Of a stretch of DNA of 64,000 bases, positions 37,164-58,900 are shown in pieces. This stretch comes from Larkinella rosea. GTDB lineage: Bacteria; Bacteroidota; Bacteroidia; Cytophagales; Spirosomataceae. The notes under the pieces were generated by a model. That model made no database searches. It worked only from the letters and a program-made list of their open reading frames with translations, and was not told the origin of the DNA. Position 1 is the stretch's first letter. Each line of letters begins with the position of its first letter. The stretch covers positions 868,001 to 932,000 of the forward strand of contig NZ_RQJO01000008.1 in the NCBI RefSeq assembly GCF_003858635.1, written 5' to 3'. Made by a program: the position numbers and the translations under genes.

Positions 37164-39092
37164 ATGAATAAATTTACGTTGTTGAGTATCGTTGTGGGGA
37201 TCGTTGGCATCATCACCATCGGAGCGTCGGGAGGGGGGCGGAAAGCCGGTCGGCAAACCGCTTTGGCTGATACCCTGATTATAATCCGGAAAGATTCGCT
37301 CTATGAAAAATTCCTGAAAGATAGCGCTTATAAGGCTATGTTTCAGCGTGATACCACCATGCGGATCGACACGGCGGCCCTGCGGGCGCAAGCGGATAGC
37401 CACAAAGTGGCCCTGCCCGAAGTACTGACCGGAGAATTGAACGGCCTGGCAGTTTGCGCCGGATCGCCGGTTTCGGTGCCCTACACTTCGTCGGGAGGGC
37501 GGTTTTCACCCGATAATAAATTTGTGCTGCAACTGGTCGATGCCAGCGGAAAAGTGACGAACCTGAGCGAACCCACTAAAGCGGGACCTTTCGGCAACGG
37601 GACGCTGGCGGGTGTTATTCCTGTGACGACGGCGGCTGGCAGCCGCTATAGTTTGCGGGTTGCGTCCACCAATCCGGTGGTGAACGGCACGGCGCAATCG
37701 CTCCGGGTTTTGCCCGTTCCGGGTGCGCGAATCGAACTGCCCGACGGCAGTAACGCGGTGACGGTTTTGCCCGGTCAACCCGCTACGTTTCGCGTGGCGC
37801 TGAGCGGTCACGGGCCGTGGTCCTTTGTGTTGTCGGATGGAACGAAAGTGCAGAATACCATGACGACGCCGTATGAAATAACCGTAACACCGGAGAAACC
37901 AACGATTTACAAAGTCGTGAACGTCAGCGGCCCCTGCGGAAGCGGAGCGGTTTCGGGTGAAATCATTGTCAATGTTAACGAAAATCCAAACCCGGAAATC
38001 ACGCTGAAAGCACCGAACGGCGGCTATCGGATTTGTACCGGAACGCCCTTTCAGGTGGCTTTTACGGCAACCGGAAGATACCAGGCTGGGAACGGGTTTG
38101 TGGCCCAGCTCGCCGATTCAACGGAGAATTGGACAACCATTTCCGGCTCCGGCACCGCCAGCCCACTGACGGCGCGGCTGCCTTACGGGATTTCCCCCAA
38201 AGGGGCTTATAAAATTCGGGTGGTGGCGACACTCCCGGCCATCAGCAGCAACAGCGAAAATCTGGCCGTGGCGGCTCAGGCCGTAGCGGTTTTGCGGAAC
38301 GATACCATCAAAATTGAGGAAGGGAAAACCGCCGAACTGAACATCGACTTCGGCGGGGGCGGACCGTGGTTCGTGTTGCTGACCGACGGAACCTACGAAA
38401 ATAACATCACCAGAAGCCCGCATACAATTCGTGTAACGCCGAACAATCCGACGGGGTACGCCATCACGTCGGCGGGTGGTGCCTGCGGGGTCGGGGAGTA
38501 CAGCGGGCGGGCCTTTGTGAAAGTGAACATTCCGCCATCGACCATCACCACCGGCAATCTGTCGGCCCGAACGATTTGCCACGGTGCCGAAATTACCGTT
38601 CCGTTTACGACCGCCGGGCGGTTTTACGCCAACAACAAGTACGTTGTGCAGGTGGCCGACACCAGCGGGCGGTTTGTCAATCTGGCAACGACGTACAAGG
38701 ATGGCGTTCTGAAAGCCACCATCACACCGGCTTACCTGAAAGACACCCTCAATACCGTCCGGCTGCGCGTAGCTTCGACCAGCCCGGCAGTGGCTGGTTC
38801 CGAAACGACGATTAAAATTCTGGCTCCCAACGTCAGCCAGGCCATTGTGGCAGGGGAGGGCACTATCCGGCCCGGCCAGACCTCCAAAGTGCGGGTGGCG
38901 TTCAAAAACGGGCTGCCGCCCTGGTCGTTTGTTTTGTCCGACGGTACACAGGTGAACGGAACGTTTCTCAATCCGTACATACTGACGGTGGCCCCCACCA
39001 GTTCGGCGGAATACACGATTACGTCCTTAAAAAGCTCCTGTGGGGTCGGGATACCGATGGGCAGTGCCCGGGTGACAGTGGAGCGAAATTAG
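37164..39092 (+). CDS. Exported protein with three tandem Ig-like repeat units, function unknown
   Basis: Protein of 642 residues from ATG 37164. An N-terminal hydrophobic segment (FTLLSIVVGIVGIITIG) exports or anchors it, then a short helical region reaches about residue 85. Three units of about 180-200 residues follow, starting near 92, 280 and 463. Each unit has one half with a G-x-C-x-G start and an N-x-[FY]-V-x-Q-[LV]-x-D strand (for example NKFVLQLVD), and one half with PW[SF]FVLSDGT or a close variant. Each unit ends in a cysteine-bearing C-G-x-G segment. I do not recognise the family beyond a beta-sandwich, adhesin-like character. No type IX sorting tail is evident. Surface adhesion or matrix roles are guesses only. 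Confidence 0.8.
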   Translation: MNKFTLLSIVVGIVGIITIGASGGGRKAGRQTALADTLIIIRKDSLYEKFLKDSAYKAMFQRDTTMRIDTAALRAQADSHKVALPEVLTGELNGLAVCAGSPVSVPYTSSGGRFSPDNKFVLQLVDASGKVTNLSEPTKAGPFGNGTLAGVIPVTTAAGSRYSLRVASTNPVVNGTAQSLRVLPVPGARIELPDGSNAVTVLPGQPATFRVALSGHGPWSFVLSDGTKVQNTMTTPYEITVTPEKPTIYKVVNVSGPCGSGAVSGEIIVNVNENPNPEITLKAPNGGYRICTGTPFQVAFTATGRYQAGNGFVAQLADSTENWTTISGSGTASPLTARLPYGISPKGAYKIRVVATLPAISSNSENLAVAAQAVAVLRNDTIKIEEGKTAELNIDFGGGGPWFVLLTDGTYENNITRSPHTIRVTPNNPTGYAITSAGGACGVGEYSGRAFVKVNIPPSTITTGNLSARTICHGAEITVPFTTAGRFYANNKYVVQVADTSGRFVNLATTYKDGVLKATITPAYLKDTLNTVRLRVASTSPAVAGSETTIKILAPNVSQAIVAGEGTIRPGQTSKVRVAFKNGLPPWSFVLSDGTQVNGTFLNPYILTVAPTSSAEYTITSLKSSCGVGIPMGSARVTVERN

Positions 39093-39186: not shown

Positions 39187-39552
39187 GTGAATAAGCTAAC
39201 CACGCAGGAAGAAGAAGCGATGCTGGTCATCTGGAAAAATAAAGGCAGTTTCGTCAAAGATTTTCTGGATCAACTGCCCGAACCGCGCCCGCCGTATACG
39301 ACATTGGCATCCACCATTCGCAATCTGGAGCGCAAAGGATACCTTAAAAGCGAAAAGTTGGGAAATACATATCGTTATGAGCCGCTGATTAGCGAAGAAG
39401 AGTATAAGAAAGGGTTCATGAGCGGTTTTGTGAGCGATTATTTCAGGAACTCCTTTAAAGAACTGGTGGCATTTTTTGCCGAAGACAAAAAGATTAGCGC
39501 CGATGAATTGAAAGAGATTATCGATCTGATTGAAAAACGAAAACCCAGCTAA
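39187..39552 (+). CDS. BlaI/MecI/CopY family transcriptional repressor
   Basis: DNA-binding repressor of 121 residues, GTG start. The winged-helix domain (about 1-75) contains LTTQEEEAMLVIWKNKGSF and PPYTTLASTIRNLERKGYL, the recognition-helix region of BlaI/MecI. The C-terminal part (about 80-121) is the dimerisation and cleavage region. In this family a membrane metalloprotease partner relieves repression, and one is encoded immediately downstream (ATG 2 bp after the stop). Two operators directly upstream indicate self-regulation. The controlled function is probably not beta-lactamase, since no such gene is near. The thioredoxin-like gene at 40768 is a candidate target. Confidence 0.93.
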   Translation: MNKLTTQEEEAMLVIWKNKGSFVKDFLDQLPEPRPPYTTLASTIRNLERKGYLKSEKLGNTYRYEPLISEEEYKKGFMSGFVSDYFRNSFKELVAFFAEDKKISADELKEIIDLIEKRKPS

Positions 39553-39553
39553 T

Positions 39554-40705
39554 ATGCCTGCCGTTTTTGTATACCTACTTCAGGCCAGTATGGCCCTATT
39601 GCTCTTCTTTTTGGTGTACCGGGTGGTTCTGGCGCGACTGACGTTTTTTACCCTAAACCGCCTTTTTCTGGTTTTGGGACTTATTTCCTCGCTACTTTAT
39701 CCGCTGGTCGATCTGGCCCCGTTTGTCAGTGAAAATGAGAGCCTGATCCGCCCGATTCAAGTACCGATTGACTGGAAAATGACGACACCTGTATTGCAGC
39801 AGGCCGCTTCCTGGAATGGCTGGGACGGGCTGTTGATCCTGTTCTGGTTCGGCGTTGCCGTGATGACGTTGCGGCTGGTGGTGCAGTTACTGTCGCTCTA
39901 TCGCATCCACATGAGTACGCAACGGGTGACGTACAATGGGTTTCGTTTCCGGGCGGTTAGCGACGATTTGAACCCGTTTTCGTTCTGGCAAGCCATTTAT
40001 TTAAACCCGGCAAAGCATTCGGAGGAAGAACGTGGTTCGATTCTGCAACATGAGCAAATCCACGTTACAGAATGGCATACACTAGACGTATTGCTGGTGG
40101 AAGTATGTACGGTTTTTTTCTGGTTTAATCCGGTGAGCTGGTTTTTGAAACAGGCCATCAAAGAAAATCTGGAATTCAGGGTCGATCAGCAGATACTACG
40201 GCGTGGATTCGACTCTAAAAACTATCAATATATGCTGGTGCGTATCAGCGGTTTGCGAGTGACTTTATCAACTAATTTCACCGAACTGATCATCAAAAAA
40301 CGGATTGAAATGATGAACCGAAAACCGTCTTCGCGCCGGTTTATAGGGAGCTACGGTCTTCTGCTGGTAATCCTGATCATGCTGATGCTTCCAAAAATAC
40401 CGGACGCATCGGTGAATCCGCCGAGAAAAATGACAACGCTTGCCGGAAACTTTTCAATCCATACCACGAACGCGTTCGCGGTGATCGATACGCCCAACGG
40501 GACACAGAATCTGATTAGAAAAATCCAACTTAAAAGCCGAAAAGCCGGGACCGAACCGCCGACCGAACTGATTCTCTTTTCGAAAAACAGCGAAGGCCGA
40601 GGCATGGATGTATACGTGAAACTAAAGGACGGTCAGATTGAACAGATCAAAATTCTGGCACTGGCTTCTCCCCATTTTTCCGCAAACTCCTCCAAAAAAC
40701 GCTGA
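39554..40705 (+). CDS. M56 family metallopeptidase (BlaR1/MecR1-like antirepressor)
   Basis: Integral membrane zinc protease of 383 residues. Three or four membrane helices precede the catalytic HEQIH (166-170) and the following EWHTLD/VD helix region. Another membrane segment (GSYGLLLVILIMLMLPKI) and an about 100-residue periplasmic C-terminal domain complete it. That domain is too short to be the penicillin-binding sensor of BlaR1, so the signal sensed is probably different. The gene follows the BlaI-like repressor with a 1-bp gap and is clearly co-transcribed. ATG 39554 is chosen over an internal frame start within blaI. Confidence 0.9.
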   Translation: MPAVFVYLLQASMALLLFFLVYRVVLARLTFFTLNRLFLVLGLISSLLYPLVDLAPFVSENESLIRPIQVPIDWKMTTPVLQQAASWNGWDGLLILFWFGVAVMTLRLVVQLLSLYRIHMSTQRVTYNGFRFRAVSDDLNPFSFWQAIYLNPAKHSEEERGSILQHEQIHVTEWHTLDVLLVEVCTVFFWFNPVSWFLKQAIKENLEFRVDQQILRRGFDSKNYQYMLVRISGLRVTLSTNFTELIIKKRIEMMNRKPSSRRFIGSYGLLLVILIMLMLPKIPDASVNPPRKMTTLAGNFSIHTTNAFAVIDTPNGTQNLIRKIQLKSRKAGTEPPTELILFSKNSEGRGMDVYVKLKDGQIEQIKILALASPHFSANSSKKR

Positions 40706-55415: not shown

Positions 55416-58400
55416 TTAATGCGTTTTGAGAATTTTTACGGTTTTTGTCTGTGTGGGCGTACTGACCCGCAACATCAACAAACCCGGTGGTTGATCCTTA
55501 ACCAAAAACCGGTGCCGTTCGACGGGTGCCGCATTGTCCACCAACTGGTGATCGACCACCCAGCCCCGCAGATTGGTCAATTCCAGCGACAATCGTTGAT
55601 TGCTGACGGCGCCCCGAATTTCCACTTCCACAGTTTCGCCGTCGACCGGATTTCCTAAAATGGTTACGGTCAATTCCGCATCGGTTTCCGCCAGCAACCG
55701 CGCTGGGGCACACTGGTAAGCTTTCGGCGAACCTTTCAGTACAAAATTCGATCCCAGCACCCGCGCCAGCACGAGAGTTCCGTTGGTAATGCTGCCCGGA
55801 GGAGTAAAATTATAAGCGTGTGTGCCGTTGCCTTTTCCGGCATCTTTCAGATCCACCCGGTAGATGTTGGCCACAGTGCTACCCAAAACCATTGCCGAAC
55901 CATCCAGGTAAAATTCAACCGTCAGCGGGGCATTCGGTTTCTTGCGGTCCCAGACCCAACCCCGAATGCCCCCGCAATCCAGCTTGTCGAGATACCCTTC
56001 AAAATCTCCCGTCACCGCCGTCGTCGAGGCTGGACTCACCGTTAATGGGAAGCTCACCGAGTTGGTCAGCGGGTTGCTGCCGGTAGTTTCGGTGGCTTGG
56101 TACGTCAGCACAAATGTGCCCGCTTCAAGGGGTGTTCCCGAAATGACCCGACTGATTTCGTTGATGGTTAAGCCCTGTGGCAAACCGGTGAGCTTGTAAG
56201 CCAACGGTTGTGCTTCCGGATCGGTGAACGGTACCAACGTGCCCGAGAACGGTACACCAACCTGGGCTGCCAGCGGAGCAATCAATACTGTGGGTACGGG
56301 GGGAGTGGGAGGCTTGTTGCCATCTGGCATGGTATTAACCTGACAGATCAGCACTTTGGGCGAGTCTTTCAGGACGAAGTCGTTGCCTGTCACCTGCGCC
56401 GACAGTCGGTGGGGTAAACCATCTTTGAGGTTTTCGGGAATGGGCCAGAAAAAGGCGTGCCGTCCATTGCCCTTTTTCTGATCGAGCAGATCCTGACGAA
56501 ATTCGCCCGCAGGAATCGTGGCAACCAACTCCGTTCCATCCAGAATGTCGATGGTAATAACCGCATTGGGTTTGTTACGATCCCAGACCCAACCCCGAAA
56601 GGTAGCGCAGTCGGCACCGTAAATAAATCCGTCGAACGAACCCGCTACGGGTATAGCCGCTACCACAACCGATCCCTCACCAGGGGAACTGACGCAGGCA
56701 TCGACGGCGCAGGTCGCCTGAAAACGGAAAGTGCCACGTGAATCCGTCGAAACGGTAATGGGACCTGTGCCAGAGGTGTTACCCGGCCCCGTCCAGGAGA
56801 GCGTTCCTGGGCAGTTATCCGCCGTTAGGATTACGGAAGGAGAACCCTGCGTGACGGTGGTACTGGTCAGATTCGGGGGGGGCGGGGGTGTTAAATCGCC
56901 ATCAATGACCACGTTCGTTGAAGCGGTACAACCATTACCCGAAGTGACAGTGACCGAATACGTCCCCGTTGAGCCCACCGAACGAACCGGGTCAACCGAA
57001 TTATCCTCCCAGCGGTAGGTGCTGCCGCCACTTGCCGTCAGACTGATAACCGGACTGGCACACGTTAAGATACCAGCGTTACTGGCTGTTATGCGGGCTT
57101 CCGGCAAGGAATTTACCAGGATACTTGTACTGGCGGATGCCATCTGATCTCCCTGCTCCACCGTCAGCGTAAAGCTTTGTGAGCCGGATTCGCCGACCGT
57201 GAGCGCCTGGCTGAAATCATGGCCACCCGACGTACCTGAGCGGGCATTACCTGTTCCGTTAGTGAGTGTATAGGCGTAACTCTCACTAACATTGCCAATC
57301 GTGGCGGTAAAGAGTACCGAACTGCCAACACAAACCGGGTTGGGGCTGGCTTCAAAACCGCTGATGGTGGGCAAGGCATTCTGCACCGAAAGGGTAAAGG
57401 TTCCGCTGGCTGATAAACCGCCCGGATCAATGGCGGTTACAGTTACCGAAAAGGGAGAACCAATAGTGGTTGAGAACGAACCGTTGAATGTGCCATTACT
57501 GAATGTTAAGGAGTTGGGTACGCCACTGGCTGACAAGGTCAAACTGGTGGGTGTTTCGTCATCTGTGAAGGTGTTGGCCGGGATGGTATACGTAAATGGC
57601 TCTCCCACTGTGGCACGCTGGGGTGGAATGACATTCGCCAGCGTTGGAGCCGTGTTGGTTGGGACAATGGCCGGAGTAACCTTGCGGATACGGTTATTGC
57701 CGGCATCGGCAATGTAGAGGTTCCCCGCGGCATCCACACATACGCCATTGGGTCGATGCAGGCTGGCACTGGTGGCTGGCCCGCCATCTCCCCCAAATGC
57801 AGCCTCACCGTTACCGGCGACGGTGGTGATGATCCCATCCGGCGATACTTTCCGAATCCGGTTATTGTCGTAATCCGCAATATACAGGTTTCCCTGCGCA
57901 TCGACGGTTACATCATTGGGAAGCCATAATTTGGCACTGGTGGCGGGGCCCCCATCACCACCGTAACCTCCTGTGCCATTGCCGGCAACGGTGGTGATGA
58001 CCCCGTCGGCGGACACCTTGCGAATCCGGTGGTTTTGCTGATCCGCGATGTAAAGATTACCGCTGGCATCCTGGGCCACACCGGCGGGAAAATTCAATTT
58101 GGCACTGGTAGCCGATCCATTATCTCCCCCAAAGCCCGGCGTTACGGTACTACCGGCAATGGTGTTGATGATCCCATCCGTTGTCACTTTACGGATTCGC
58201 TGGGTATACTGATCGGCGATAATGAGACTCCCTTCGGCATCTACGATCAGATTACTGGGGCGGGATATATTGGCTTGTGTGGCCTGTCCGCCATCCCCGC
58301 TATACGTATTATCGCCCTTACCCGCTACCGTCGTTATGATTCCATTCAGGGCTACTTTTCGGATGCGGTTATTGCGCTGATCTGCGATATATACATTTCC

Positions 58401-58748
58401 AGCGGCATCTAGCGCTACTCCCGTGGGATAGAATAAGTAGGCATTGGTGGCCTGACCGCCATCTCCGCCATAGCCCAGCGTACCCCTACCGGCTATGGTC
58501 GTAATTGTGCCACTGGTGGACACTTTCCGAACGCGGTGATTACTACAGTCGACAATGTAAAGGTTACCCTGGGCATCCAGTGCCACAGCGTACGGAAAGT
58601 TCAGCTTGGCGCTGGTGGCCGGTCCGTTGTCTCCCCCGTACGTAGCACTGCCGCTGCCCGCGATGGTGGTGATGGTTTGTGCCTTTAAGACGGAGGAAAA
58701 AAACAGGCCGGTGGCGCAAAGCCACCCGAAAAGGAAAACGTGTTTCAT
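55416..58748 (-). CDS. Secreted NHL-repeat / Ig-like protein with duplicated GWVWDR domain and T9SS-type tail
   Basis: Secreted protein of 1110 residues from ATG 58748. Signal peptide (1-23, ending LKAQ). Six NHL repeats of about 56 residues follow (about 23-360), each with GGDGGPATSA-like and NLYIADxxNNRIRKV segments. Several Ig/cadherin-like domains occupy about 365-700. Two copies of a domain of roughly 90 residues follow (about 705-800 and 910-1010), both starting with the motif GWVWDR and ending in a lone cysteine after KDSPK or KGSPK. The last about 85 residues (PPGLLMLRVSTPTQTKTVKILK) resemble a type IX secretion sorting tail. The longer frame upstream lacks a signal peptide. It is divergent from the hybrid kinase, which may control it. 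Confidence 0.85.
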   Translation of the reverse strand: MKHVFLFGWLCATGLFFSSVLKAQTITTIAGSGSATYGGDNGPATSAKLNFPYAVALDAQGNLYIVDCSNHRVRKVSTSGTITTIAGRGTLGYGGDGGQATNAYLFYPTGVALDAAGNVYIADQRNNRIRKVALNGIITTVAGKGDNTYSGDGGQATQANISRPSNLIVDAEGSLIIADQYTQRIRKVTTDGIINTIAGSTVTPGFGGDNGSATSAKLNFPAGVAQDASGNLYIADQQNHRIRKVSADGVITTVAGNGTGGYGGDGGPATSAKLWLPNDVTVDAQGNLYIADYDNNRIRKVSPDGIITTVAGNGEAAFGGDGGPATSASLHRPNGVCVDAAGNLYIADAGNNRIRKVTPAIVPTNTAPTLANVIPPQRATVGEPFTYTIPANTFTDDETPTSLTLSASGVPNSLTFSNGTFNGSFSTTIGSPFSVTVTAIDPGGLSASGTFTLSVQNALPTISGFEASPNPVCVGSSVLFTATIGNVSESYAYTLTNGTGNARSGTSGGHDFSQALTVGESGSQSFTLTVEQGDQMASASTSILVNSLPEARITASNAGILTCASPVISLTASGGSTYRWEDNSVDPVRSVGSTGTYSVTVTSGNGCTASTNVVIDGDLTPPPPPNLTSTTVTQGSPSVILTADNCPGTLSWTGPGNTSGTGPITVSTDSRGTFRFQATCAVDACVSSPGEGSVVVAAIPVAGSFDGFIYGADCATFRGWVWDRNKPNAVITIDILDGTELVATIPAGEFRQDLLDQKKGNGRHAFFWPIPENLKDGLPHRLSAQVTGNDFVLKDSPKVLICQVNTMPDGNKPPTPPVPTVLIAPLAAQVGVPFSGTLVPFTDPEAQPLAYKLTGLPQGLTINEISRVISGTPLEAGTFVLTYQATETTGSNPLTNSVSFPLTVSPASTTAVTGDFEGYLDKLDCGGIRGWVWDRKKPNAPLTVEFYLDGSAMVLGSTVANIYRVDLKDAGKGNGTHAYNFTPPGSITNGTLVLARVLGSNFVLKGSPKAYQCAPARLLAETDAELTVTILGNPVDGETVEVEIRGAVSNQRLSLELTNLRGWVVDHQLVDNAAPVERHRFLVKDQPPGLLMLRVSTPTQTKTVKILKTH

Positions 58749-58900
58749 AACGATCAGGAAGAGAATAAGGTGAGATGGGCTACCGGAAGTGAACCCACTG
58801 TTCAAAAGTAGAGAGCGGTTTCGGGAGAGACTTGCACCTACGTAACATTGACTTGACCTGTGGTAACCTTCCATGAAAAACCGCTCCATTCACACAAAAA

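Follow-up and report, generated by a model that had tools for sequence, protein, structure and literature searches.

POM152, a nuclear pore protein of fungi, combines a transmembrane segment with a large, glycosylated domain in the lumen (PMC8543022), and its homology to bacterial Ig-like proteins is already published according to a passage of PMC8327139. In Bacteroidota, D(S/T)(A/I/L/M/T/V) is a motif for O-glycosylation. In the paper that describes it (PMC10897501), 73 of the 224 glycoproteins of Prevotella intermedia are predicted to be periplasmic and 14 are T9SS cargo, and the glycoproteins with this motif are mostly periplasmic or membrane proteins in one species. A literature search over titles and the openings of abstracts, mostly outside the subscription literature, returned nothing on the A-B module described below or on the protein that carries it here.

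This protein is encoded in a stretch of 64,000 nucleotides from the 8.17 Mb genome of Larkinella rosea, which we call the window. The open reading frame lies at 37164-39092 on the forward strand, starts with ATG at 37164, stops at 39090-39092 and encodes 642 amino acid residues (the window protein, Table 1). An earlier note on this DNA had proposed a three-fold repeat, and the repeat is real. When the protein was cut into units of 197, 183 and 182 residues, their pairwise local alignments with BLOSUM62 scored 250, 288 and 202, whereas 300 shuffles per pair gave means of 35-37, a standard deviation of about 6 and a maximum of 64. Each unit consists of two Ig-like sandwiches, an A half with the motifs C-x-G and N-x-[FY]-V-x-Q and a B half with PW...DGT and CGxG. 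The second and the last of these motifs were found in all three units as the note had described them (NKFVLQ, NGFVAQ and NKYVVQ; CGSG, CGVG and CGVG). The first had been given as G-x-C-x-G and is C-x-G (CAG, CTG and CHG in units 1 to 3); units 1 and 2 have a glycine four residues before the cysteine, and unit 3 lacks it. PWSFVLSDGT occurs in units 1 and 3, and unit 2 has PWFVLLTDGT.

Table 1. Features of the window protein, with positions in the window.
Feature	Position	Strand	Basis
N-terminal hydrophobic signal sequence, residues 1 to ~24	37164..37235	+	hydrophobic core; AF2 helix 3-20; Larkinella cleavage site not obvious
Linker, residues ~25-83, with five D[ST][AILVMT] O-glycosylation motifs	37236..37412	+	pLDDT <50 at 18-81; motif counts and controls
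Unit 1 A half (Ig-like), residues 84-184; Cys98 at turn between first two main strands	37413..37715	+	
Unit 1 B half (Ig-like, PWSFVLSDGT), residues 185-275; Cys258 just past long penultimate strand	37716..37988	+	
Unit 2 A half, residues 276-372; Cys291	37989..38279	+	
Unit 2 B half (PWFVLLTDGT), residues 373-458; Cys441	38280..38537	+	
Unit 3 A half, residues 459-553; Cys472	38538..38822	+	whole unit 3 also folded alone
Unit 3 B half (PWSFVLSDGT), residues 554-642; Cys626; protein end, no sorting tail	38823..39089	+	unit 3 also folded alone

The fold was analysed with AF2. The model of the whole protein (mean pLDDT 82.2) showed six sandwiches built of strands, with no helices outside the signal sequence and the linker, at a pTM of only 0.37 for the whole chain. 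Unit 3, folded alone on an alignment of 72 sequences, reached a pLDDT of 93.5 and a pTM of 0.78. When the whole model was searched with Foldseek, the I65-I70 segment of titin came first and a GhpA fragment of Aureispira second. Since the TM-scores were low, these matches are, as far as the model goes, a likeness of domain chains and not a superposition. With the single-unit model, the best Foldseek matches were antibody-type and complement domains. The models and the PDB matches agree on a beta-sandwich of the Ig type. The disulphide between strands B and F within the domain, which marks a classical Ig domain, was not found, each half having one cysteine. We conclude from these results that the window protein is a six-domain rod of known fold.

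In searches with sequence profiles, the profile of the orthologues had POM152 as its sole hit among the PDB sequences at E up to 10 (E 0.0017). A profile of diverse AB units also found POM152 first, with an E-value of 1.6e-11 for the whole sequence and of 0.0057 for the best single stretch; titin came behind it at 3.9e-5, and 22 sequences, other Ig proteins among them, were found at E up to 10. With the Pfam family of the POM152 Ig-like domain, PF24312, each of the 18 orthologues gave a match at E up to 1, the best being 7.5e-10, and its cut-off of 27 bits was exceeded in four of the five paralogues scanned. The window protein itself scored 26.6 bits and is related to PF24312 without being filed as a member. 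At the level of genomes, 23 of 39 relatives matched PF24312, nine of them over the cut-off, compared with none of 14 controls; the search of the window's own genome gave no match at 1e-3. The other Pfam hits of the window protein were weak ones to Big_7, DUF973 and the HYDIN Ig domain. Among the paralogues, single domains of two exceeded the DUF4469 cut-off (24.1 and 22.8 bits, cut-off 22.6) and a domain of one exceeded that of Flagellin_D3 (27.4, cut-off 24.2). The earlier note had not recognised the repeat as a named domain, and the Pfam and NCBIfam scans did not assign it to a dedicated family either. A clear match to a known Ig-like family, which the note had named as the finding that would speak against its reading, was largely obtained: the units are Ig-like in the models and in the PF24312 and POM152 matches.

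The distribution of the gene was surveyed at two depths. At E 1e-60, it was found in 81 of 222 genomes of the family and in 12 of 36 genera, in a single copy per genome. The matches span most or all of the domain region, with a few confined to part of the query, and two of the 81 are interrupted by an in-frame stop. In the narrower survey, 49 of 59 related genomes had matches at E 1e-3; a near-full-length orthologue was present in 18 and only weaker matches in the others. These 18 aligned orthologues are 42-95% identical to the window protein and have all kept the three units and the six unit cysteines. Most motif residues are kept as well, and in unit 3 the PW tryptophan is not fully conserved. 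When named genomes were scanned, they yielded 62 loci from Larkinella, Runella, Dyadobacter, Telluribacter, Persicitalea, Arundinibacter, Rhabdobacter and MAGs, the closest named relative being Larkinella terrae with 95% identity. Together with the window protein, these loci form the set of 63 orthologues used below. Every member of the set shows three A and three B domains with nothing past the last B, and one stops about 11 residues before the end of the profile. The repeat structure and the conservation of the protein are well supported, and the gene is best explained as that of a single-copy envelope protein in part of the window's family, which is Spirosomataceae judged from the named relatives. 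The analysis defines an unnamed exported protein, one copy per genome, in 12 genera. The copy-number survey that the earlier note had suggested is answered in part: the unit number is three in the orthologue group and variable in the sampled paralogues.

The paralogues were studied in 45 open reading frames from 40 chosen regions. A and B halves mostly alternate in them, and their number ranges from single domains to seven A-B pairs. The commonest pattern is ABAB (17 of 45), and arrays of B domains only are also present. A T9SS sorting tail was detected in four of the five longer paralogues scanned; the window protein gave no match to TIGR04183 up to E 10 and lacks the C-terminal sorting domain (TIGR04183 or PF18962) of T9SS cargo. 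The A-B pair of Ig-like domains thus also builds T9SS-tailed proteins of the window's family, and the module is common to the window protein and to multi-repeat proteins exported by the T9SS. Two short A-B proteins outside the main orthologue group, L154 and L185 (511 and 497 residues), have no sorting tail visible by eye. In the phylum survey, the AB profile matched 20 of 118 genomes at E 1e-8, and seven fetched regions contained ten open reading frames with domain hits, eight with a single A, one with an A plus a B and one with six B domains. On plasmids, only two distant matches were found (22.9% and 27.7% identity). That A and B are copies of one domain was not established, the hhalign probability being 1% for the orthologue halves; with diverse halves it was 32%, at a pairwise E of 5e-4.

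The window protein has exactly six cysteines, two in each unit and all within the units. In 72 diverse units, the cysteine of the A half was the sole invariant column, and the cysteine of the B half and the glycine after it were among five further columns conserved to at least 90%. The models place the A cysteine in the turn that connects the first two main strands, whereas the B cysteine comes immediately behind the long penultimate strand. In the usual Ig topology, the former position lies at the far end of A and the latter at the near end of B. Because of these strand positions, the two cysteines should, by this argument from topology, face each other across the A/B joint.

The terminal stretches of the paralogue domains were then inspected for the cysteine, which was present in 128 of 128 A domains and in 161 of 165 B domains. 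The four exceptions belong to B-only, single-B or B-led frames. At the ends of the arrays, the cysteine was found in 32 of 32 first A domains and in 39 of 40 last B domains. This fits a pairing of A with B within the unit and not of B with the next A, since the latter would leave the end cysteines unpaired. Where a B domain is preceded by an A and not followed by another B, it has one cysteine in 91 of 93 cases; where a B follows, it has two or three in 20 of 20. The pair of cysteines per unit proposed in the earlier note is therefore very plausible as a disulphide, with column conservation and array ends in agreement. We infer a disulphide across each A/B joint, between the far-end cysteine of the A half and the cysteine in the facing loop of the B half that follows. 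Each A-B pair would then be a rigid stapled block, and the joints between the blocks would be looser. In the B-only arrays L165 and L178, with four to seven domains, most repeats have a cysteine close to their start or end and a second one close to the C-G-x-G region, and the arrays look as if stapled from domain to domain.

In front of the first unit, the orthologues have a signal sequence and a linker. A hydrophobic start followed by an AQ-type cleavage site was found in 46 of 63 orthologues; the cleavage site is unclear in the other 17, the eight Larkinella orthologues included. A lipobox-like pattern in nine of the 63 probably arose by chance, as it lies inside the hydrophobic core. No second hydrophobic segment follows the N-terminus in any of the 63. 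The linker is about 30-100 residues long, and up to 70 residues upstream of the first A domain were counted. The motif D[ST][AILVMT] occurs 244 times in these 63 linkers, which come from related orthologues and are not independent, whereas 500 shuffles averaged 27 sites and never exceeded 49. The reversed motif occurs nine times, and 271 of the 315 aspartates have a serine or threonine directly after them. In 12 chosen representative linkers, 42 sites stood against one reversed site, and two of the 12 linkers had a single site. The domains also exceed their shuffles, with 248 sites against a mean of 98 (34,796 residues, 0.7 per 100). The O-glycoprotein motif of Bacteroidota is thus present in an exported protein, and the stalk would be O-glycosylated in the periplasm, as predicted from its sequence.

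Where the protein resides was read from the absence of known export signals. As it has no T9SS tail, no C-terminal anchor and no further membrane segment, the periplasm appears the likelier location. The description as a surface protein in the earlier note is not supported by a sequence without a sorting tail and without a later hydrophobic segment, when four of the five longer paralogues scanned do carry the tail. Our preferred reading, to which we give an even chance, is a conserved envelope protein that acts as a periplasmic, O-glycosylated scaffold or spacer rod of three disulphide-stapled Ig pairs. By sequence and prediction, the protein consists of the export signal, the motif-rich linker and the three A-B pairs. 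If the reading is right, the staple and the glycosylated stalk show how these bacteria stiffen long strings of domains, and the protein is an example of an export-type module retained inside the envelope.

It is possible, though unlikely, that the protein is a surface adhesin that is shown outside the cell via an unrecognised route and binds ligands with its Ig-like domains. The module does occur in T9SS-tailed proteins, and the model of the whole chain is similar to strings of Ig domains of the adhesion type. However, the sorting tail and a later membrane segment are missing here, and three constant units in a single copy per genome are unlike the variable arrays of the paralogues.

A role as a T9SS accessory was considered because of the gene neighbourhood. 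The protein would aid the PorU/PorZ attachment complex at the outer membrane, which would account for its place upstream of porZ. In 37 of the 63 loci, porZ lies downstream on the same strand, as the next gene in 33 (median gap 26 bp) and as the third gene in four, and comB lies directly upstream in 43. Two neighbouring porZ products were scanned and both exceeded the NF052228 cut-off of 260 bits (354.7 and 370.2). Further downstream, many of the porZ loci have a PorU2-like gene. One of these genes was scanned and, truncated by the end of its locus, reached 407.7 bits against 450. SprA was present in nine of nine genomes tested, all of which bear the gene. On the other hand, the gene is apart from porZ in the Larkinella and Runella loci and in the genome G033, and in the window's genome porZ is on a different contig. 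The gene and porZ are not always kept together: four Dyadobacter genomes (L062, L073, L088 and L093) keep the gene and gave no PorZ over the cut-off (best 42-60 bits, with 53 of 79 and 53 of 82 first-look candidates scored in two of the four), nor did G033 (14 of 19 candidates scored). Conversely, several genomes without the gene have PorZ, where porZ has other neighbours in the fetched regions. Since the flanking genes gcvT, comB and udk are metabolic, the linkage to porZ may reflect shared descent of the gene order. A strict partnership with PorZ is unlikely because the gene persists in the four Dyadobacter genomes where no porZ is recognisable, and for the same reason the accessory role is ranked below a general envelope role and seems rather improbable to us.

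Some further observations were made in these neighbourhoods. In the four Dyadobacter genomes, udk directly follows the gene at 27-126 bp, SprA is present and 58-92 sorting-tail matches were counted per genome; a T9SS without a recognisable PorZ may merit study there. The eight Larkinella loci, that of the window among them, all have a divergent gene upstream, and its product looks by eye like a PaaE-like oxidoreductase. Directly downstream in the window, at 39187-40705, the translations resemble by eye a BlaI/MecI-like repressor and an M56/MecR1-like membrane peptidase. At 55416-58889 on the reverse strand, the window encodes a large protein in which, judged by eye, propeller-like stretches recur and the end resembles a T9SS sorting tail. 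A link of the gene to a shortened PorZ was considered and rejected: the PorZ beside the gene is short (about 600-660 residues), but so is that of G009, G013 and G018, which are without the gene.

The preferred periplasmic rod can be extended to one that spans the periplasm. As signal cleavage is unclear in 17 of the 63 orthologues, the uncleaved signal could be an inner-membrane anchor in Larkinella and some Runella, from which the glycosylated stalk would pass through the wall and hold the three stapled Ig pairs toward the outer membrane as a tether or spacer. Such a protein would parallel the membrane-anchored Ig string of POM152 and would be built from a T9SS export module whose tail was lost or had never existed. 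We regard this version as a long shot. That the protein is a decayed T9SS cargo, with its tail lost and the gene on its way out, is very improbable: the kinship of the module with tailed paralogues and the in-frame stop in two of 81 matches would suit it, but the 18 orthologues have retained 42-95% identity, all six unit cysteines and most of the motif residues, and this, like the presence in 12 genera, speaks against decay.

Compared with the known systems, the window protein shares the A-B module with T9SS cargo that carries the Por_Secre_tail (TIGR04183/PF18962) and has up to seven units; four of the five relatives scanned have the sorting tail, whereas the window protein is without it. The GhpA fragments of Aureispira (9flw and 9flv, Foldseek rank two, E 7e-16) are bacterial and also form a string of similar domains. 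Their likeness to the window protein is one of domain chains only (TM 0.22-0.25), and GhpA is absent from the PDB sequence matches. The best structural match of the A half is the C-terminal domain of TonEBP and NFAT1 (1imh and 1pzu, Z 10.2 and 9.9; rmsd 2.4 over 89 residues for TonEBP). By the fold class of NFAT, we take the A half to resemble the IPT/TIG type of domain, and the Pfam scans of the window protein and its paralogues brought up no IPT/TIG family. TonEBP and NFAT1 are eukaryotic transcription factors with 8-9% identity to the A half and share the fold alone. With POM152 (PF24312; PDB 8t9l, chain B), the best matching stretch spans nearly the whole AB unit including the C-x-G motif, and both proteins are strings of Ig-like domains.
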